37,743 nucleotides of DNA from positions 1-37,743 of the forward strand of contig JAGGXZ010000020.1 in NCBI GenBank assembly GCA_021162805.1, in the 5' to 3' direction. How positions within the stretch are numbered: the stretch's first letter is position 1; every line of letters starts with the position of its first letter. A program made the translations under genes and the position numbers. The DNA is from Candidatus Poribacteria bacterium (lineage in GTDB: Bacteria > Poribacteria > WGA-4E > B28-G17). The notes under the pieces were generated by a model. That model was not told the DNA's origin. It ran no database searches and saw nothing but the letters and a program-made list of their open reading frames with translations. Positions 16,969 to 27,892 of the stretch are shown here, in pieces.

Positions 16969-18546
16969 ATGATTTATGAGCTGAGGGTTAGAGGCTATAA
17001 GCTTCGGCTTTTGCTGTTCGGGGTTACGACCTCGCTGTTTATCTTCATTTGGATCGCCGTCACAGAGCTGAGATGGTGGGAGTTGGTCGCTTTTGCCCTC
17101 GTGAATGGTCTTTTCTGGCTGGTTCATCCCCGCGTTAGGGAGAGGAAGGACCTGGCCAGATCCCTTTACGCCGTTCATTTGGTGGGGCTTGTAGGGTTAA
17201 CATGGTCCTTTGGAGCCGAAACCAGGCTGTTTTATTATATGGTCTTTCCGCTGTTGGCGATGGGAGCGTTAGATTACGGAGTGCGAGGGAGCTTCACGGC
17301 GGCGTTCGTATCCGTCCTTCTCTATCTCCCCTTCTGTCTTCCGGGGGAGATCGGGCTTTACATCCAACGATCGGCGATCGCCGTCATATCCTCCTTTTTC
17401 TTAGGCCTTATAGGGGAGGAGAAGCGAAGGGTAGAGGTCGAGCTGGCCGATATGGAGGATTATGCGGATCTACTCGTCAACAGCATAAAGAGTGGGATGA
17501 TAGTGACCGATATAGAAGGAAGGATGAAGTCTATGAATGAATCGGCCGAACAGATCTTGGGATACACCGCCGAGGAGCTGAGGGGGTTGAAGATAGATGA
17601 GCAGATTCAGATCCATCAGGGTGAAAGCCCTCTCCTCAAAGCGATCAAGGAACGCCGACCGGTTGAGCGAATAGACATAACTGTAAAGACGAAATCGGGC
17701 GAGGAGATACCGGCGGGGGTGAGCGTTTACCTGATTCAGGGGAAATCAGGTGGTGAGGTGCTCGGAGCCGTTGAGATCTTCAGGGATATGAGCGAGATAA
17801 AGGAAAGGGAAGCTCTGCTGCAACGGCAGGAAAGGCTGATCGCTATGGGTGAGATGGCCGCCGAGGTGGCTCATGAGATCAGAAACCCGCTGGGAGGGAT
17901 AAAGGGGTTCGCCTCTCTCATACAGAGAAGGGCCCAGGATGAATCGATCAGACGACACGCGGAGTTTATCATCGAAGGGGTGAGCAGCATCGAGAAGATC
18001 GTCAACGACTTTCTGGCCTATGCCCGCCCGATCAAACCGGTCTTTATGAAAGCCGACCTTCACACGTTGATAAAAAGCTGCATCCTCACATCATTAGAGG
18101 GATTTGAAAACATAAACGTGGAGACGGACTTCTCAGATCGTATCGGCGAGGTGGAACTGGATGTCGAGCAGATGAAACAGGTCTTCAGGAACCTCCTTAT
18201 CAACGCCGCCGAGGCCATGCCCGACGGCGGAACGATATTCGTCAGGACATATCCGTGGAATAAACCCTTCAAATCGATATTCGAAGGTCGCCAGATGCTT
18301 CTCCCTCCCGGGGAAACGGTCGTCGTGGAGATCTCAGACACCGGGCCGGGCATACCGGATGAGGTGAAGGAAAGGATCTTCAATCCCTTCTTCACGACGA
18401 AAGACACGGGCACGGGATTAGGTCTGGCGATCGTCCACCGTATAGTTGAAGCTCATGGCGGAACTATATCGGTCAGGGACCGAAAGGGCGGCGGAGCCAC
18501 CTTCGTGTTGAAGCTTCCCATCATCCATGGAGGTGAATCGGGATGA
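16969..18546 (+). CDS. Membrane PAS-domain sensor histidine kinase (NtrB/AtoS-like)
   Basis: 525 aa. The first 150 residues hold about five membrane helices without a large periplasmic loop, so it may sense within the membrane. A PAS domain follows (165-275; SIKSGMIVTDIEGRMKSMNESAEQILGYT). HisKA has the phosphoacceptor H302 in AEVAHEIRNPLGG. The ATPase domain is complete: N box NLLINAAEAMPDGG (N412), G1 DTGPGIP (457-463), F box FNPFFTTK and G2 GTGLGL (481-486). It is first in a five-gene operon and its stop overlaps the next ATG (ATGA), so the NtrC-type regulator is its obvious partner. Confidence 0.95.
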   Translation: MIYELRVRGYKLRLLLFGVTTSLFIFIWIAVTELRWWELVAFALVNGLFWLVHPRVRERKDLARSLYAVHLVGLVGLTWSFGAETRLFYYMVFPLLAMGALDYGVRGSFTAAFVSVLLYLPFCLPGEIGLYIQRSAIAVISSFFLGLIGEEKRRVEVELADMEDYADLLVNSIKSGMIVTDIEGRMKSMNESAEQILGYTAEELRGLKIDEQIQIHQGESPLLKAIKERRPVERIDITVKTKSGEEIPAGVSVYLIQGKSGGEVLGAVEIFRDMSEIKEREALLQRQERLIAMGEMAAEVAHEIRNPLGGIKGFASLIQRRAQDESIRRHAEFIIEGVSSIEKIVNDFLAYARPIKPVFMKADLHTLIKSCILTSLEGFENINVETDFSDRIGEVELDVEQMKQVFRNLLINAAEAMPDGGTIFVRTYPWNKPFKSIFEGRQMLLPPGETVVVEISDTGPGIPDEVKERIFNPFFTTKDTGTGLGLAIVHRIVEAHGGTISVRDRKGGGATFVLKLPIIHGGESG

Positions 18547-19889
18547 GCGAGGAACGGATACTGGTGGTTGACGATGAGAAGCTGATGAGGGAGTATCTCA
18601 AGGAGCTCTTGGAGCCCGAATATCGAGTGGATACGGCCGCATCCGCTTTAGATGCCCTGAAGATGTTAAGGGATGAGGTCTACGATCTGGTGATCACCGA
18701 TCTGAGAATGCCGAAGATGGATGGCATAGAGCTTTTAAAGCATGTAAACGACATATCCCCCGGCACACAGGTGATAGTCCTGACCGCTTACGGCAGCGTC
18801 GAATCCGCCGTTGAAGCTATGAAACTGGGGGCGTATGATTATATAGGTAAGCCGATCCAGTCACCCGATGAGATGGAGCTTAAGGTCAGAAGGGCGATCG
18901 AACGCGGGAGACTGATCAGAGAAAACCTGTATCTGCGGAGGGAGCTGGAGAAAAAACTCAGATATAACATCGTCGGCAAAAGCCCTAAGATGCAAGAGGT
19001 GTTCGACAAGATAGCGGCGGTGGCGAAAAGCGATATCACAGTCCTTATAACGGGGGAGACGGGAACCGGCAAGGAACTGGTAGCAAGGGCGATTCACGAG
19101 AACAGTCATCGTAAGGACGGCATGTTCGTCCCCGTCAATTGCGGCGCAATACCGGAAAATCTCCTCGAAAGCGAACTTTTCGGACATGAAAAAGGCGCAT
19201 TCACAGGAGCCTACAGGCGAGAGATAGGAAGCTTTGAGATGGCGAACGGCGGAACCATATTCCTGGACGAGATCGGAGAGATGTCTCCCCATCTTCAAGT
19301 TAAACTGCTGCGCGTGTTGCAAAACGGGGAGTTCCAAAGGGTCGGTAGCCCGAAGGTGCTGAAAACCGATGCCAGAGTTATAGCTGCTACAAATACCGAT
19401 CTGCAAAGGGCCGTCGAGGAGGGGAGGTTCAGACAGGATCTGTACTACAGGTTGAACGTGGTCAACATCAAACTTCCTCCCCTGAGGGAGCGTAAGGAGG
19501 ATATACCGTTGCTCGTTCACCACTTCCTGCGGAAATACGGTCCGAATAAGGAGGTGACACCTGAGACGATGAAGATCCTCCTCTCCTACGATTGGCCGGG
19601 CAACATCAGAGAGCTTGAAAACGTGATAGAGTCAGGTTGCGTGCTGAGCAGGACAAATCTTATAACGCCCGATGATCTGCCGGATTATCTGATAGAAACG
19701 GGCAGACAGAAACGCCGGCTGCCGCCAAGTGGGGATATGTCACTTGCTGCTATGGAGAGAGAACATATAAAATACGTGTTAGACCAAAACGGCTGGAACA
19801 TAACCAGATCGGCTGAGATTTTAGGAATAGATAGGGTGACGCTATATAACAAGATCAAAAAATACGGCCTTAAAAAGCAGTCCGGGTGA
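18543..19889 (+). CDS. NtrC/AtoC-family sigma54-dependent response regulator
   Basis: 448 aa. Receiver domain with phospho-acceptor D53 (VITDLRMPKMDG), then an AAA+ domain with Walker A GETGTGKE (171-178), the sigma54-contact loop GAFTGA (218-223) and Walker B GTIFLDEIGE (237-246). A C-terminal Fis-type helix-turn-helix (WNITRSAEILGIDRVTLYNKIKKYGL) ends the protein. All hallmarks intact, so it should activate transcription with RpoN when phosphorylated. ATG overlaps the kinase stop by 4 bases. I did not find a clear -24/-12 RpoN promoter in the window, so its targets probably lie elsewhere. Confidence 0.95.
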   Translation: MSEERILVVDDEKLMREYLKELLEPEYRVDTAASALDALKMLRDEVYDLVITDLRMPKMDGIELLKHVNDISPGTQVIVLTAYGSVESAVEAMKLGAYDYIGKPIQSPDEMELKVRRAIERGRLIRENLYLRRELEKKLRYNIVGKSPKMQEVFDKIAAVAKSDITVLITGETGTGKELVARAIHENSHRKDGMFVPVNCGAIPENLLESELFGHEKGAFTGAYRREIGSFEMANGGTIFLDEIGEMSPHLQVKLLRVLQNGEFQRVGSPKVLKTDARVIAATNTDLQRAVEEGRFRQDLYYRLNVVNIKLPPLRERKEDIPLLVHHFLRKYGPNKEVTPETMKILLSYDWPGNIRELENVIESGCVLSRTNLITPDDLPDYLIETGRQKRRLPPSGDMSLAAMEREHIKYVLDQNGWNITRSAEILGIDRVTLYNKIKKYGLKKQSG

Positions 19890-19901
19890 AGGAGTCCAAC
19901 C

Positions 19902-20828
19902 ATGGCCAGGATCCTGGTGGTAGATGACGATAAATTGGTGCTTCAACTGTTCATCGAGACGCTGAGCGAAGAGGGATATAATGTGGATGGAGCCTCCAGC
20001 GGAACTGAGGCTTTGGACCTCCTCAGGAGAAATCAATATGAGGTCATACTCACCGATCTTAAACTGCCCGAGATGAGCGGGATCGAGATACTCAAAAAGG
20101 CGAAGTCGAAGGATCCAAATGTCGAGGTTATCATCATAACCGCCTATGGCACGATAGATCTCATAGTAGAAGCCGTTAGAGAAGGCGCTTATGACTTCAT
20201 AGTTAAGCCGGCTGAACTGAGCCGGATATCCCTGGCGGTCAAGAACGCTCTCACCAAACGGTCGCTCGAAAGAGAACTAAAGGAAGCCATCAGGAAACAT
20301 CAGGAGCTCTACGAGATGGCGGTAAGAGATCCCCTCACCGGCCTCTACAATCAGAGATACTTCCGGGACCTTATGGGACGGGAGATAAACAAGGGCGGAA
20401 CGCTATCGCTGGTGATGTTCGATCTGGATAACTTCAAATATTACAACGACACACATGGACACCTGAAAGGCGATCAACTGCTCAAGGATATAGCTAAAAT
20501 CCTTGAAAGTAACAGACGCAGCACCGATATAGTCGCCAGATATGGGGGTGATGAATTCACTATTATCCTCCCAGGAACGACGAAGGAGAACGCGGAACGG
20601 TTCGCCTGGAGATGTGTGAGGGAGGTGGAAAACCATCACTTTAAGGGCGAGGAGGTGATGCCTAAAGGGAAGGTGACGATGAGTGGTGGCGTAGCCTCCT
20701 TCCCCGAGGATGCCATCGGGGCGGAGGAACTGGTCGAAAAGGCCGATAAAGCGTGCTATTGGGCCAAAGAGATGGGCAGAAATAGAGTTATGGCCTATGA
20801 AAGGAGAGAGGAAGAGGATGAGGGATAG
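19902..20828 (+). CDS. REC-GGDEF diguanylate cyclase
   Basis: 308 aa. Receiver (D52 in ILTDLKLPEMSG, K102 in VKPAE), a short helical linker (115-140), then a GGDEF domain starting DPLTGLYNQRYF. It has an intact active loop RYGGDEF (213-219) and the RxxD product-inhibition site RSTD (206-209) exactly five residues before it. So it should make c-di-GMP from GTP on phosphorylation, with feedback inhibition. The ATG lies 12 bases after the upstream stop with AAGGAG in front. Same operon as the kinase and sigma54 activator. Confidence 0.95.
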   Translation: MARILVVDDDKLVLQLFIETLSEEGYNVDGASSGTEALDLLRRNQYEVILTDLKLPEMSGIEILKKAKSKDPNVEVIIITAYGTIDLIVEAVREGAYDFIVKPAELSRISLAVKNALTKRSLERELKEAIRKHQELYEMAVRDPLTGLYNQRYFRDLMGREINKGGTLSLVMFDLDNFKYYNDTHGHLKGDQLLKDIAKILESNRRSTDIVARYGGDEFTIILPGTTKENAERFAWRCVREVENHHFKGEEVMPKGKVTMSGGVASFPEDAIGAEELVEKADKACYWAKEMGRNRVMAYERREEEDEG

Positions 20829-22773
20829 GATTCTGATCGTTGAGCCCGAACCCAGCGTCCGAGAATCCCTCAGGTTGATACTTCGGGATGATCACGAGAT
20901 CGAAACTGCCGGGGAGATGGACGAGGCAAAGGAGATGCTATCCAAAGGGCGGTTCGATCTGGTGATGGTTGACCTAACCGAGGGGGACCTCGCCCCGTTG
21001 ACCGACCTGATGTCCAGAGTTGAGGGAATACCCGTGATAGTCATCTCATCCTTCAGAGATCCCAGCCTCATCGTTAACGCCATGAAGCTCGGCGTGGCCG
21101 ACTACATACTTAAACCGTTCGATGTCCATTCGCTGAGGGATTCCGTCGAGAAGGCGATCCGAAAGTCCAGGGAGACACGAGCCGCCATGTCCGCCGAGGA
21201 GGAAAGAGAGGTCATCGTGGACGCGGTGCTGTTCAGAGGATATTTCTACTATCTCGAATCGATCCGTTCTTTCGGCCGATCGGTCAACACCGCGCCGGAC
21301 ATGGAGTCCCTTGTCCGTAGGATGATACAATCGGTTATGACGTCGCTCGGCGTAGGTCAATGTATGATCTTCCTGCCGGAGGATGACGGATTCGCCCTGA
21401 AAAGTTATTCCCCTATGAGTCAATCCGTTCAGAACATACTTACCGTCCCTCGCTCGCATCCGCTCTTCCAGTTCTTGGAAAAAGAAGGAAGGATAGCATT
21501 CGAGAGGGAGCTGAAAGCCCACATGCCTGAAGATTCACGCGAGCTTATCTCCAGACTCAGTGGATTAGGTGTGTATCTATACGCTCCAATGCTGGTCGAG
21601 GAGAAACTGATGGGGGCGATAGTCGTCGGTGATAAGCTCTGTGGCACGAGATTTGTCCCCGGTGAGCTCGATCTGCTTTCAACCCTGGCCTTACAGGGGG
21701 CTTGGGCGATCAGGGCCATAACCTCGCGCCAGAGCGTAGAGGGGATGAACAGATTCCTGAAAGATCTGCTGGATAACCTCACCAGCGGAGTCATAGCGAT
21801 CGACGTTGAGGGCAGAATACTGATCTTCAACAGCTACGCTCAAAAACTTACGGGATATGACCCGGATCAAATTCTGGGCCAGAATATCTCCAAGCTGGGC
21901 GATGAGTTCTCGTCCATGGTCATGCGCTCGCTCGGGATGGATGAACCTCAAAAAAGAGTCGAAGTTCGTTTGACTTCGGCCAAGGGTGATGAAATCCCCA
22001 TCGGCATGAACATATCCATCCTGAAGAACCCCTCCGGCGAAAAGATCGGCGCGGCGATGATATTCGCCGATCTCTCACATGTCCAGCGTATCGAAGCGAA
22101 GAGGAGGTTATCGGATAAGCTCGATATATGGCTCGCCGTCGCCGCCGAGCTGGAACATCTCTTCAGAAATCCTCTCGTTTCCATCAAGACGTTCGCCCAG
22201 CTTCTTCCGGAGAAATACGAGGACGAGGAGTTCAGAACGAAGTTTTACAGGTTGGTGGGCGATGACGTGGACTTCATGAGCAGCCTCATCGAAGAATTCA
22301 CTGCCTTCTCACACCCCTTACACCTTGAAAGGAAACCGGCCGATCTTAATCTCATCATCTCAAAGGTTATATCAAAGCTGAAGGGAGAGATGGAGGGGAT
22401 CGAACTTGATCTCGAATATGATGAGAAACTCGGTCAGGTTATACTCGATTCGGATCTTTTTTCCAAGGCACTGGAAAACGTTCTCACAAATTGCCTGGAT
22501 GATCTTGACCCGGATAGACGCAGGATTTCGCTGAAAACCGGATCGATACAGGACATATGGAACGGGGGGAAAAAGGCGATCGTGGAGATATCATATCCAA
22601 GGGTCGAGGATTATGTTAGACCTTTGAAAGGCGCGGGAACGATCCAGTTTGCCATCGCCGAGCGCATCATAGCGGAACACGGAGGATTGATCTATATGGA
22701 GGAGAAGGAGGGCAAGATGATATCGCTCAGGATCGAGCTACCTATGGAGGATGAGAGTGGCTCAAAGGCCTAA
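20818..22773 (+). CDS. REC-GAF-PAS protein with degenerate histidine-kinase core
   Basis: 651 aa. Receiver (D52 in MVDLTEGD; K99 in ILKPFD), GAF-like domain (about 155-305), PAS (about 312-425), then a HisKA-like segment ELEHLFRNPLVSIKTFAQLL. H447 is in register with the phospho-His, but the usual neighbouring Glu is Leu. The ATPase-like end keeps an N-box Asn (NVLTNCLDDL, N558). It has no DxGxG G1 motif (ISYPRVEDYVRPLKG instead), and the G2 box reads GAGTIQF rather than GTGLGL. Catalysis therefore looks lost, and it may act as a scaffold or signal integrator. I start at ATG 20818, which overlaps the cyclase stop by 11 bases and follows GAGGAAGAGG. Confidence 0.85.
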   Translation: MRDRILIVEPEPSVRESLRLILRDDHEIETAGEMDEAKEMLSKGRFDLVMVDLTEGDLAPLTDLMSRVEGIPVIVISSFRDPSLIVNAMKLGVADYILKPFDVHSLRDSVEKAIRKSRETRAAMSAEEEREVIVDAVLFRGYFYYLESIRSFGRSVNTAPDMESLVRRMIQSVMTSLGVGQCMIFLPEDDGFALKSYSPMSQSVQNILTVPRSHPLFQFLEKEGRIAFERELKAHMPEDSRELISRLSGLGVYLYAPMLVEEKLMGAIVVGDKLCGTRFVPGELDLLSTLALQGAWAIRAITSRQSVEGMNRFLKDLLDNLTSGVIAIDVEGRILIFNSYAQKLTGYDPDQILGQNISKLGDEFSSMVMRSLGMDEPQKRVEVRLTSAKGDEIPIGMNISILKNPSGEKIGAAMIFADLSHVQRIEAKRRLSDKLDIWLAVAAELEHLFRNPLVSIKTFAQLLPEKYEDEEFRTKFYRLVGDDVDFMSSLIEEFTAFSHPLHLERKPADLNLIISKVISKLKGEMEGIELDLEYDEKLGQVILDSDLFSKALENVLTNCLDDLDPDRRRISLKTGSIQDIWNGGKKAIVEISYPRVEDYVRPLKGAGTIQFAIAERIIAEHGGLIYMEEKEGKMISLRIELPMEDESGSKA

Positions 22774-23791
22774 ATTGTTGATCGTCGATGACAATATAGG
22801 ATTTTCCGAATCGATCAGGCTTATCCTTCAGGATGAGTATGAAATTCAACTGGCTCACAGCGGATTTGAGGCGCTAGAAAAGGCGAAATCGAACCTCTTC
22901 GATCTGATACTTCTGGATATAAGATTGCCGAGGATGGATGGCCTGGAGACCCTCAAACGGCTCAAGACCATCTCGCCTGAGAGTGAGGTCATAATGATAA
23001 CCGCCTACGGCGATGTGAGGACGATCAAGAGCGCCCTCAGACTGGGGGCTGTCGATTACCTGGAGAAGACCGGATTCCTGGCTCACGAGATAAAGGAGAC
23101 CCTAGGGAGGGCTATGAGGGATAGAAGAGCTCGCCTGGCAAGGAGAAGAAGGTTAGAGGAGCTCAGAAGTGAAAACAAAGAGCTAATCGCCAATTTATAT
23201 ATCATAGAGACTGAGATAGAAAAGCATAGGAATCTAGGATATGCTGATGTGGTGAAGGCCATCTCGACCGCCTTGAACGTGAGGGATGATATTGTAACGA
23301 TCTACGCCCGGTCTGTCGAAGAATACGTGCTTCCGGTCGCTCGTAGACTTGATCTTCCTCAGGATGAGGAGATAAACTTGAGGGTGGCTGCCGCCTTACA
23401 TGACGTCGGGATGCTGGCGATAAGCGAGACGATATTATCCAAGCCCGGACCGCTTACCCAGGAGGAATGGAAAACCGTGAAGCGTCATCCCGATGTCGGA
23501 GCGAGCATAATAAAAAGCCTCGGCAGATGGCCATTGGCGGCGGAGATCGTGCTCTATCACCATGAAAGGATGGATGGAAGTGGGTATCCGTTCCATCTGA
23601 AGGGCGATCAGATACCTCTAGCGGCGAGGATAGTGGCGGTCGCCGATGCTTATGACGCTATGATATCTGAACGCCCCTATAGGAGAGCTCTCTCCAAGGA
23701 AAGGGCGATCCAAGAGCTTATGAGAGACAGAGAGAAATTTGGCCCTGATGTAGTTGATCTTTTCTGCGAATCCCTACAATCCTTACGTTGA
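22751..23791 (+). CDS. REC-HD-GYP phosphodiesterase-like response regulator
   Basis: 346 aa. Receiver (D56 in LILLDIRLPRMDG), a coiled helix (about 115-165), then an HD-GYP domain. Metal-site residues are present: HD at 217-218, H246 in KRHPDVG, H270-H271 in YHHERMDGSGYP (GYP 278-280) and D299 in VADAYDAM. The usual HDxGK lysine is Met (HDVGM, M221), and the receiver's KP cis-proline is replaced (EKTGF). HD-GYP proteins hydrolyse c-di-GMP, so this is the degradative partner of the GGDEF protein in the same operon. The start overlaps the preceding gene by 23 bases. Its end overlaps the convergent DAC gene by 9 bases. Confidence 0.9.
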   Translation: MRVAQRPKLLIVDDNIGFSESIRLILQDEYEIQLAHSGFEALEKAKSNLFDLILLDIRLPRMDGLETLKRLKTISPESEVIMITAYGDVRTIKSALRLGAVDYLEKTGFLAHEIKETLGRAMRDRRARLARRRRLEELRSENKELIANLYIIETEIEKHRNLGYADVVKAISTALNVRDDIVTIYARSVEEYVLPVARRLDLPQDEEINLRVAAALHDVGMLAISETILSKPGPLTQEEWKTVKRHPDVGASIIKSLGRWPLAAEIVLYHHERMDGSGYPFHLKGDQIPLAARIVAVADAYDAMISERPYRRALSKERAIQELMRDREKFGPDVVDLFCESLQSLR

Positions 23792-24727
23792 CCCGTCCTC
23801 CTCCGGTGGCGGTTCGTTGTTCCCTCCATTCATATCGTTCCGTAGAAGCTGTAGGATCTCCTCGCGGAGCGTCTCTTTGTCCGCATACGGATCATAGGAT
23901 CTCATAAACTTCCCGTCCCTGAACATTGTCACCTCGCTTGTCTCTTCGCTGACCACGATCGATACCATGACCTCATCGAGCGAGGAGGCATATATGGCGG
24001 CGGCGTGTTTAGCGTTCCCCTTGAGCAGTTTTTCAACCTTATTGTAGACCTTATGTGTCCGAACACCCTCCACCATAACCCTGGTTTTGAAAGCTATGCC
24101 TTTGAGATTGATCAGAACGGCCCCATCTCGCTCCTCATGCCCCGTCACCTCGCCGGATTCATCCACGATCTCCACCCTCTCGCCCATGAAGTTAAACACA
24201 TCTTCGATCTTGGGCGAGAAGATATGCGGCAGGTTGTCTATCCCCTTGTACAGGTTTTGATCCAGATATTCCACCTGTCCTTCATGGAAGTCGGAGAAAT
24301 TCTCCCTATCCATATTCCTTTCATCGACAAGGATCAGGAAAAGTCCCCTGTTTTTGCGTATCCTCTTATTCTCCAGGGCGAACTTTCGGGCGAGGGAGTA
24401 AAGCTTCTCGATGTACAGCTCTATCAGCTCCTGCCGATCGGCCAGCATCTGCTCGTATTTTCTCTTATCTATCCCCAGCTCCCGAACTCTCTCCTCAACC
24501 TCTCTATTGACTTCCTCCTCAAATTGTCTGAGCTTCTCCTCATATTCCCTGGAGAGATCCTCGTATTTCTCCCTATACCCCTCTAGTTCGGCCACCTTGG
24601 CCAACAGCTCCTCGTTAGAAGAGAGAAGCTGCTGGTTTTGGGTCTCATACCCTCTTATCTTTCTCCTCAGGTCGTTAAGCTCCGATAATAATGCTCTATA
24701 TCTCCTCCTACTTATTATCCTGAACAT
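23783..24727 (-). CDS. Coiled-coil protein with diadenylate-cyclase (DAC/DisA_N)-like domain
   Basis: 314 aa. Residues 10-125 form a long, highly charged coiled coil. The C-terminal 180 residues align by eye with the DAC domain of CdaA/DisA: GLFLILVDERN, then the catalytic DGAVLI (DGA at 201-203), then NAKHAAAIYAS where DAC enzymes have TRHRAAVGIS, then SIVVSEETSEVTMFRDGKF. The DGA motif is intact, but the ATP-binding RHR motif reads KHA (240-242). It may make c-di-AMP, bind a nucleotide, or be inactive. There is no membrane anchor. I start at ATG 24727 because a promoter -10 overlaps the ATG 16 codons upstream. It is tail-to-tail with the HD-GYP gene. Confidence 0.75.
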   Translation of the reverse strand: MFRIISRRRYRALLSELNDLRRKIRGYETQNQQLLSSNEELLAKVAELEGYREKYEDLSREYEEKLRQFEEEVNREVEERVRELGIDKRKYEQMLADRQELIELYIEKLYSLARKFALENKRIRKNRGLFLILVDERNMDRENFSDFHEGQVEYLDQNLYKGIDNLPHIFSPKIEDVFNFMGERVEIVDESGEVTGHEERDGAVLINLKGIAFKTRVMVEGVRTHKVYNKVEKLLKGNAKHAAAIYASSLDEVMVSIVVSEETSEVTMFRDGKFMRSYDPYADKETLREEILQLLRNDMNGGNNEPPPEEDGST

Positions 24728-24763: not shown

Positions 24764-24792
24764 ATTATACATCAAATTTTCGAAACTGTATA
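24764..24792 (-). promoter_or_regulatory. Promoter for the DAC-like gene
   Basis: Minus-strand -35 TATACA (24787-24792), 17 bases, consensus -10 TATAAT (24764-24769). It predicts transcription starting near 24757, 30 bases before the ATG at 24727, with GGAAGG in the leader. Confidence 0.65.
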
Positions 24793-25273: not shown

Positions 25274-27892
25274 GTGAGCGGCCCGCCCGGAAGATATCTG
25301 AGACTGCTGAAGGAGGTCGGGGGATACGGCGAGGATCTGGCACATATGAGCGACGAGGGGATTCGAGATCTGTTCCGCCGCGCGCGCCGATCGCCCCGAT
25401 CCATCACCCTCCCCCGTCTTCTGACGGCCATCCGCGAGGCGGCTCGACGAGGCGTAGGGCTTCACCCCTTTGACGTCCAGATCCTAGGCGCCATAACGGT
25501 CATCGACGGATGTATAGCCGAGATGAAGACCGGAGAGGGCAAGACGTTGGTGGCGGCCATGTCAGCATGCGTCTGGGCGATCAGGGGGATGAGGACCTAT
25601 ATCGTGACGATCAACGATTACCTCGCCCGCCGTGACGCCGAATGGATGAAACCCCTCTTCGAGGTATGCTCGCTTAGCGTCGGCTGCATCACCTCCCAGC
25701 TTTCCCGTTTCGAACGAAGGAGGGAATACTCCCGAGACGTGATCTACTGCTCAAATCACGAATTGGCCTTCGACTATCTGCGTGATAACCTTGCTCTATC
25801 AACCCGTGAGGTGGTCCAGGGAGAACTTGAGGCGGCCATAATCGATGAGATAGATACGGTGTTGATAGACGAGGCTCAAACCCCGCTCATAATCGCGGGG
25901 ATCGAAGAGCCAAGATCGGGCGAGATGTCCAGGGCCAGATGGATCGCCTTGGAGATGATGAGGGTTCAATCCGAAAGGGTCAAAAAGGTCCTGGATGAAA
26001 TCGAATCGGGAGAAATGGAGGATAGGGATCTCGCCCTCGCCATTGCTAGGTTGAGGCGTGCCGATCCGTCCAATCCCAGGCTGCTCAAGGTCCTGGCCGA
26101 GCGGCCCGAACTTTCCAGAATGAGCTCCCTCCTTGAATCGAGGCTCCGGATAGAGGGGAGGGGAGGGGCTTTGGAGGAGGGATTGCTGTATGGGCTGGAT
26201 GAGAGGACCAGATCGGCCTGGCTCACAGCGGAGGGGGACGAGTTCGTCGCTACCCACGGTGTAAGGTTCGATCGGCTCTCCGGAGGATGGAGGTTATACA
26301 GGAACATCGTCCAGCTCATCCGCGCCTTTAAGCTCTTCAGGCGCGATGTGGATTACATCGTCCGAGACGGCAGGGTAGTCGTGGTGGATGAGTTCACCGG
26401 CAGAACGGCGCCGGACAAACGCTTCGAAGGTGGATTGCACCCTGCCCTGGAGTGTAAGGAGAACCTCCCCATCAGACCCGATCAGAGGATCAGCGCGAGA
26501 ATAACCTATCCCGCCCTCTTTAAACTCTTCGGGAGATTGGCCGGATTGACCGGGACGGCATCTCCAAATGCCGAGGAGTTCCACAGGCTTTACGGACTTA
26601 AGGTGGTGAAGATCCCGACCAATCGCCCTGTTATCAGGGCCCAGCTCCCCGACGCGACGTTCAAAACCGAATCGGAAAAGCTCCGCTCGGTGGTGGAGGA
26701 GATCGAGAGGTTCCATCGGCTCGGCGTTCCGATACTGGTCGGAACGAGATCGATCGAAGCATCGGAGAAGATAAGCCGCATGCTGAGGGAGAGGGGGTTA
26801 AACCACGCTGTGCTCAACGCCAAGAACCATGCCGCCGAGGCCCAGATCGTCAAACATGCCGGCGAGCCTTACAGGATCACCGTCGCCACCAACATGGCCG
26901 GACGGGGCACGGATATCAAGCTCCATCCGAACCTCTTCGAGGTCGTGACCGATAACTATATCGAAGAGATAAAAGAGGCTATCGAGGAGGGATGCACCGT
27001 CAAGGTGGAGATCTTCTCGGAGTTCGAGGGGGGAAAGCTCAAAAAAAGGCTCTCCGAGGAGGGAATCCCGTTCAGCGATGAGGGCGATCTAATCGTGGTA
27101 AGGGGGAGTGGGGGTGAGGAGCGAAGGATCAGGTTTCATCTGGGGCTATACGTGATCGGCACGGAGAGACATCAGGCGCGGCGAATAGACGACCAACTGG
27201 CTGGCCGCTCCGGCAGACAGGGCGATCCCGGCGTATCTAGGTTCTTCACATCGCTCGAGGATGAGCTGGTCAGGCTATACGGAGGGAACATCGGAGGTGA
27301 TGAGGAGATATCCCGGATCTTTAAGGCTCAGCGGGCCGCCGAGGAGGCGGGATTTGCGGCCAGAAGGGCCGAGATGAGATATGACGGGGTGATTGCGCCT
27401 TATAGGGAGCGTTTCTATTCGATGCGACGCCGGATACTTACGGCCGAGGATATATCCCCCGAGATCACACGGATCATCGAGGGATGCTCCGAGCTGTTGC
27501 TCGGTGATCCGCGCGAGAAGGTGATGGGGGAATTCCTTATGACGCTCGATGAGACGAAGGACCTGAAGGCCACCCTCTGGGGAAGGTGGGAGGAAATCCG
27601 GCGAAGATATGATGAGGCGGCCGATGATATGGTGAGGAGACTCCTGCTTGAATCATACGACAGGGCGTGGTCTGAGTTCCTGGCTTTGGCGGATGAGGTG
27701 GCGCTGAGCCGAATGATCCAGCCGGTGGATATCTTCCATCCCGGCGCCGATCTGATCCTGCGACTCTCCGGGATTTTCGACGATCTGATCAGATGTGCTG
27801 AGATGGAGTTTCTAAGGGAGCTCTCCCTTTCGGCGATGCCCCACCATCGAAGGGTTGTGATAGACCTGAATTCGGAGAGGAGGCAAGGATGA
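25274..27892 (+). CDS. secA: Divergent SecA-family preprotein translocase ATPase
   Basis: 872 aa. Drives proteins through SecYEG with ATP. Walker A MKTGEGKT (84-91), DEID box DEIDTVLIDEAQTPLIIAG (191-209), FTGR and GGLHPALECKE of the preprotein cross-linking region (374-396), GTASPNAEEF, TNMAGRGTDIKL (539-550), and IGTERHQARRIDDQLAGRSGRQGDPG (628-653). Between the last two blocks sits a 70-residue stretch (551-622) longer than in standard SecA. The C-terminus ends without the Cys-rich zinc/SecB-binding tail. Start is GTG at 25274 with AGGGGGAT before it. It could be the only SecA or an accessory SecA2; the divergence and operon favour a paralogue. Confidence 0.88.
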   Translation: MSGPPGRYLRLLKEVGGYGEDLAHMSDEGIRDLFRRARRSPRSITLPRLLTAIREAARRGVGLHPFDVQILGAITVIDGCIAEMKTGEGKTLVAAMSACVWAIRGMRTYIVTINDYLARRDAEWMKPLFEVCSLSVGCITSQLSRFERRREYSRDVIYCSNHELAFDYLRDNLALSTREVVQGELEAAIIDEIDTVLIDEAQTPLIIAGIEEPRSGEMSRARWIALEMMRVQSERVKKVLDEIESGEMEDRDLALAIARLRRADPSNPRLLKVLAERPELSRMSSLLESRLRIEGRGGALEEGLLYGLDERTRSAWLTAEGDEFVATHGVRFDRLSGGWRLYRNIVQLIRAFKLFRRDVDYIVRDGRVVVVDEFTGRTAPDKRFEGGLHPALECKENLPIRPDQRISARITYPALFKLFGRLAGLTGTASPNAEEFHRLYGLKVVKIPTNRPVIRAQLPDATFKTESEKLRSVVEEIERFHRLGVPILVGTRSIEASEKISRMLRERGLNHAVLNAKNHAAEAQIVKHAGEPYRITVATNMAGRGTDIKLHPNLFEVVTDNYIEEIKEAIEEGCTVKVEIFSEFEGGKLKKRLSEEGIPFSDEGDLIVVRGSGGEERRIRFHLGLYVIGTERHQARRIDDQLAGRSGRQGDPGVSRFFTSLEDELVRLYGGNIGGDEEISRIFKAQRAAEEAGFAARRAEMRYDGVIAPYRERFYSMRRRILTAEDISPEITRIIEGCSELLLGDPREKVMGEFLMTLDETKDLKATLWGRWEEIRRRYDEAADDMVRRLLLESYDRAWSEFLALADEVALSRMIQPVDIFHPGADLILRLSGIFDDLIRCAEMEFLRELSLSAMPHHRRVVIDLNSERRQG

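Follow-up and report, generated by a model that had tools for sequence, protein, structure and literature searches.

We identified a distinct subfamily of diadenylate cyclase (DAC)-fold proteins in Poribacteria whose members carry a long N-terminal coiled coil and which, judging from sequence comparisons and structural models, most likely act as c-di-AMP synthases. The representative studied here is encoded in the window, i.e. the whole stretch of 37,743 nucleotides of Poribacteria DNA that was analysed. Its open reading frame spans positions 23783-24727 (-) and encodes 314 amino acids plus a stop (coding part 23786-24727, -). In the alignment, the ATG start codon at 24727 agrees with that of the sister-genus orthologue, which begins MFRIIS. 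The gene comprises an N-terminal coiled coil followed by a DAC-fold domain.

Residues 7 to 123 (24359..24709, -) are predicted to form a long helix or coiled coil, with AlphaFold2 placing helices at residues 7-84 and 88-123. Hydrophobic residues recur with a coiled-coil-like, heptad-type periodicity of 3.5 residues between positions 8 and 96, a signal reached by only 2 of 2000 shuffled sequences. The DAC-fold domain follows at residues 127-290 (23858..24349, -). No CdaA_N, DisA-linker, HHH or DacZ_P hits were obtained. The coiled-coil N-terminus put forward in the preliminary description is supported. In the DAC domain, 85 synonymous and 26 non-synonymous codon differences separate the gene from its sister gene, indicating purifying selection. 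Based on this and on an open reading frame that is intact in 20 genomes, we rejected the possibility of a pseudogene. A role as a defence gene was likewise set aside, PADLOC yielding one weak match that was confined to the coiled-coil part (E 0.01). Upstream of the gene lies a weak promoter-like site (TATACA-17-TATAAT, 24764..24792, -), with 1 such site found versus 1.1 expected by chance.

The assignment of the C-terminal domain to the DAC fold rests on several searches. The Pfam DAC profile (PF02457) aligned with residues 200-273 of the window protein at 21.7 bits, below the cut-off of 27 bits, while four orthologues, in G013, G011, G022 and G048, scored above it (values reached: 30.8, 28.8, 28.1 and 27.3 bits). 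AlphaFold2 models of the full-length protein and of the domain only had pLDDT values of 83.4 and 84.7, and for both models all 50 of the 50 Foldseek matches listed were solved diadenylate cyclases with a probability of 1.00 (best E 1.8e-6 for the full-length and 1.2e-5 for the domain-only model), confirming the fold that had been suggested from the sequence. With TM-scores of 0.52 (by query) and 0.63 (by target), the similarity of the domain model to DACs is moderate, perhaps as a result of the inserts specific to the family. Searches of PDB sequences returned DAC proteins only at E 0.06-0.16 and weaker. Using hhalign, where each E-value counts one comparison, a profile of the 20 family members matched DacZ-type DACs over 143 columns (probability 96.5, E 8.7e-10) and CdaA-type DACs over 86 columns (probability 95.6), with no match to the DisA-type set from Poribacteria (probability 0.8). 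Taken together, the fold and profile evidence led us to reject a chance occurrence of DAC-like motifs.

Full-length members were found in 20 of 85 Poribacteria genomes, distributed over families f1 and f3-f8 but not f2. Two weak matches in f2 genomes (G038 and G065) covered the coiled-coil part alone and were excluded from the count. A search across 84,980 species yielded 17 relatives, all of them from Poribacteria, and a wider set of 387 genomes contained no full-length member outside the phylum, the weak outside matches including canonical DACs. The subfamily is thus Poribacteria-only as found so far, within the limits of genome sampling and completeness. In the tree, the family forms one clade (support 100/99) whose stem branch carries 4.02 changes per column, which bears out the earlier proposal of a separate subfamily. 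Owing to the long branches, the placement of this clade among the DAC classes, also relative to DacZ, is not secure.

We compared the ATP site with that of CdaA, in which, according to PMC7288161, side-chain ligands are contributed by the Leu of GALI, the Asp of DGA, the Thr, Arg and His of GxRHRxA, the Ser and the final Glu of SEE. The counterpart of GALI, whose role is taken from the same study, is by alignment RGLF at residues 127-130 (24338..24349, -). The DGA motif (residues 201-203, 24119..24127, -) is retained, as had been noted, with D201 and G202 present in 20/20 members and invariant in other classes and A203 in 19/20. SEE at residues 260-262 (23942..23950, -), which provides phosphate and metal ligands in CdaA (PMC7288161), is found in every member. 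At residues 240-242 (24002..24010, -) the window protein carries KHA instead of RHR. Of the 20 members, 13 have R and 7 have K at the first position, 19 have H and 1 has R at the second, and 17 have N, 2 have A and 1 has S at the third. The GxRHRxA motif is hence absent from the window protein and replaced by ARHN in most orthologues. The reported KHA therefore stands for the window protein and its sister genus, the only ones to share it, but is not typical of the family. Of the CdaA-type ligand residues, D201, S260, E261 and E262 are present in all 20 members, H241 is missing once and the Arg position is always R or K. The window protein departs from CdaA by Lys for Arg and Ala for Thr while retaining Asp, His, Ser and both Glu residues.

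The alteration of RHR had been taken to point to a new ligand, a reading that is weakened by our comparison. The third Arg is not on the list of CdaA ATP ligands (PMC7288161), and it is present in only 1 of 22 DacZ-type proteins collected (two of which match Pfam DacZ_P above cut-off). It is also replaced by Q in the DisA-like L066 and by L in the CdaA-like L057. Because it is missing in 21/22 DacZ-type proteins, L057 and L066, the third Arg does not define the DAC superfamily. The DacZ class includes members reported active (PMC6741144), and those of its proteins that lack the third Arg are presumably active as well, the enzymes assayed being those of H. volcanii and M. jannaschii. As the residue is neither a CdaA ATP ligand nor common in DacZ-type proteins, its loss says little and is weak evidence of inactivity. 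The unusual changes are Lys for the first Arg (7/20) and Ala at the Thr-ligand position (19/20, and also 9/22 DacZ-type proteins); within RHR, only Arg to Lys touches a ligand residue. Activity is abolished by R203A in CdaA (PMC12974146) and by changing RHR to AAA in DacA (PMC3328451) and CdaS (PMC4568413), substitutions that do not speak to Lys at the Arg position.

The exchange of the Arg and Thr ligands for K and A in the window protein and its sister, together with the long stem branch, would also be expected of a catalytically dead DAC homologue that senses ATP or c-di-AMP and relays its state to partners via the coiled coil. We consider such a sensor possible though clearly less probable than an active synthase. 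The conservation of the D, H, S, E and E of the site despite the long branch argues against it, as does the Arg kept in 13/20 members. In the window's genome, c-di-AMP would be supplied by a co-occurring CdaA, a point in favor of a sensor, but 16 member genomes contain no other detected DAC that could act as a source of c-di-AMP.

The c-di-AMP machinery of the member genomes was surveyed for the phosphodiesterase PgpH, the CdAMP_rec receptor and the ydaO riboswitch. At a threshold of E 0.001, no other DAC-domain protein was detected in 16 of the 20 genomes, 12 of which are at least 90% complete, and a DacZ-type query likewise found no further DAC there. A CdaA- or DisA-type DAC co-occurs in the other four (G000, G004, G005 and G042). 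The window's own genome encodes a canonical CdaA, located beside a gene for a pterin-binding enzyme, as well as PgpH. The CdaA-like DAC of G004 mentioned above (L057, contig C257), which has RHL for RHR and SAE for SEE, is possibly a degraded canonical cyclase accompanying the coiled-coil DAC of that genome. On an outer branch of the phylum, G041 combines a DacZ-like DAC domain (L068, contig C27) with a CdaA-type DAC. A PgpH-type c-di-AMP phosphodiesterase with an intact HD motif is present in 4 of the 16 sole-DAC genomes (G003, G007, G011 and G013, all from family f3), whereas the other 12 gave no PgpH match. Among the 85 genomes of the phylum, CdAMP_rec had no match and no member genome contained a ydaO riboswitch; the only one detected (85.5 bits) lies in G040 (L102, C156:1331-1502), a genome without the coiled-coil DAC. 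As PgpH, ydaO and CdAMP_rec matches are all missing, use of c-di-AMP in those 12 genomes is putative.

The general scarcity of PgpH and of the c-di-AMP receptors searched for in member genomes leaves some room for a DAC-fold enzyme with a different nucleotide product. Specificity would then come from two segments whose conserved residues do not vary among the members but are missing or different in other DACs: FSxFHxxQ at residues 144-151 (24275..24298, -; F144, S145, F147 and Q151 in 20/20, gaps in 42/42 other aligned DACs) and MVEGVRT at residues 218-224 (24056..24076, -; M218, E220, G221, V222 and R223 in 20/20, different in other classes). A further family-specific insert at residues 181-196 (24140..24187, -) contains a beta hairpin according to the AlphaFold2 strands, with M181 and G192 in 20/20 members and gaps in other classes. 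We regard a different product as unlikely, given that PgpH is found in all four f3 genomes carrying the family and that the ribose, phosphate and metal ligands are the same as in c-di-AMP synthases. Similarly doubtful is a broader version in which a Poribacteria-specific cyclase with its own inserts and a product other than c-di-AMP uses the coiled coil as a scaffold, mostly together with an adjacent PEGA-domain protein. A PEGA-type protein of about 560 amino acids is encoded directly upstream of the DAC gene on the same strand in 12/20 genomes (L018:6136-7821, L017:1027-2712 and relatives), with a PEGA domain in most copies examined and a hydrophobic segment near the end. Such proteins occur throughout the phylum, including genomes without the coiled-coil DAC, and the window's genome encodes one elsewhere (G000 C171:19478-21022). 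Their N-terminal part appears caspase-like by eye; Pfam gave no confirmation.

The preliminary description had also placed the gene tail-to-tail with c-di-GMP genes. In the window, the DAC gene is indeed convergent with a receiver and HD-GYP gene, their 3' ends overlapping by 9 bp, and it seems conceivable at first sight that it belongs to the adjacent c-di-GMP operon and couples c-di-AMP to c-di-GMP signalling. We judge this highly improbable, since convergent genes do not form one transcript. The convergent neighbour in the sister genus resembles the HD-GYP protein in its receiver part only (residues 2-118), and the gene after it encodes a homologue of the histidine kinase found in the window. 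Other relatives, including those in other families, have different and unrelated neighbours. The tail-to-tail arrangement thus stands while the functional tie was rejected, the association not being conserved. The signalling run itself (16969-23791, +) encodes a histidine kinase, a sigma-54 response regulator, a receiver-GGDEF, a receiver-GAF-PAS-kinase and the receiver-HD-GYP protein. At 25274-27892 (+) the window further encodes a SecA homologue of 872 amino acids (289.4 bits) which, in view of a second, higher-scoring SecA on contig C108 (426.6 bits), may be an accessory SecA.

Among the known classes, DacZ/CdaZ proteins (Pfam DAC plus DacZ_P) give the best profile match, which spans the whole DAC domain, and share a usually non-Arg third RHR position, an Ala or Ser preceding the Arg and a comparable VxxFxxG stretch following the SE motif. 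The family differs in having SEE instead of SES, three segments of its own and a coiled coil instead of DacZ_P; no Pfam hit to DacZ_P or a PK_C-like domain was obtained for the window protein, where only the helix precedes the DAC domain. With membrane-bound CdaA/DacA it has the DAC fold, DGA and SEE in common, but GTRHR is replaced by ARHN or KHA, DGA is not preceded by His and the helical coiled coil takes the place of the CdaA_N transmembrane domain. CdaS is likewise soluble and has a helical part at its N-terminus, which is needed for oligomerisation and activity (PMC4568413). However, the coiled coil of the window protein is much longer, and the NCBIfam CdaS hit is weak (14.3 bits, cut-off 225). 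Only the DAC fold is shared with DisA, whose linker and HHH domains are missing. DAC architectures have been catalogued in a published census (Galperin 2023, cited in PMC12974146). A literature search for the name DACNV found nothing.

An active c-di-AMP synthase is favoured because of the DAC fold, the homology to DacZ, the retained ligand residues and purifying selection, and because the protein is the sole detected DAC in 16/20 genomes, four of them with PgpH. On the other side stand the Lys in place of an Arg that is essential in known enzymes, the Ala at the Thr ligand, the CdaA and PgpH already present in the window's genome, the 12 sole-DAC genomes that gave no PgpH match, the absence of ydaO and CdAMP_rec matches from every member genome and the moderate TM-scores. 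Fold, homology, conservation, distribution and the predicted helix come directly from the computations, and from them we infer an activity, product, oligomerisation and mode of regulation as follows. The N-terminal coiled coil would join two or more chains, and each DAC domain would bind one ATP, with Asp201 contacting the ribose, Lys/Arg240, His241 and Ser260 the phosphates and Glu262 the metal. Facing DAC domains would then join two ATP molecules into c-di-AMP. The coiled coil would thereby replace the membrane helices of CdaA or the DacZ_P domain of DacZ and set both the oligomeric state and the cellular location of the enzyme.

If correct, this would extend the known DAC classes by one whose N-terminal architecture we did not find described. 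It would further imply that the usual RHR motif is stricter than the DAC superfamily requires, and the family would constitute a natural test of an Arg to Lys exchange in the ATP site.
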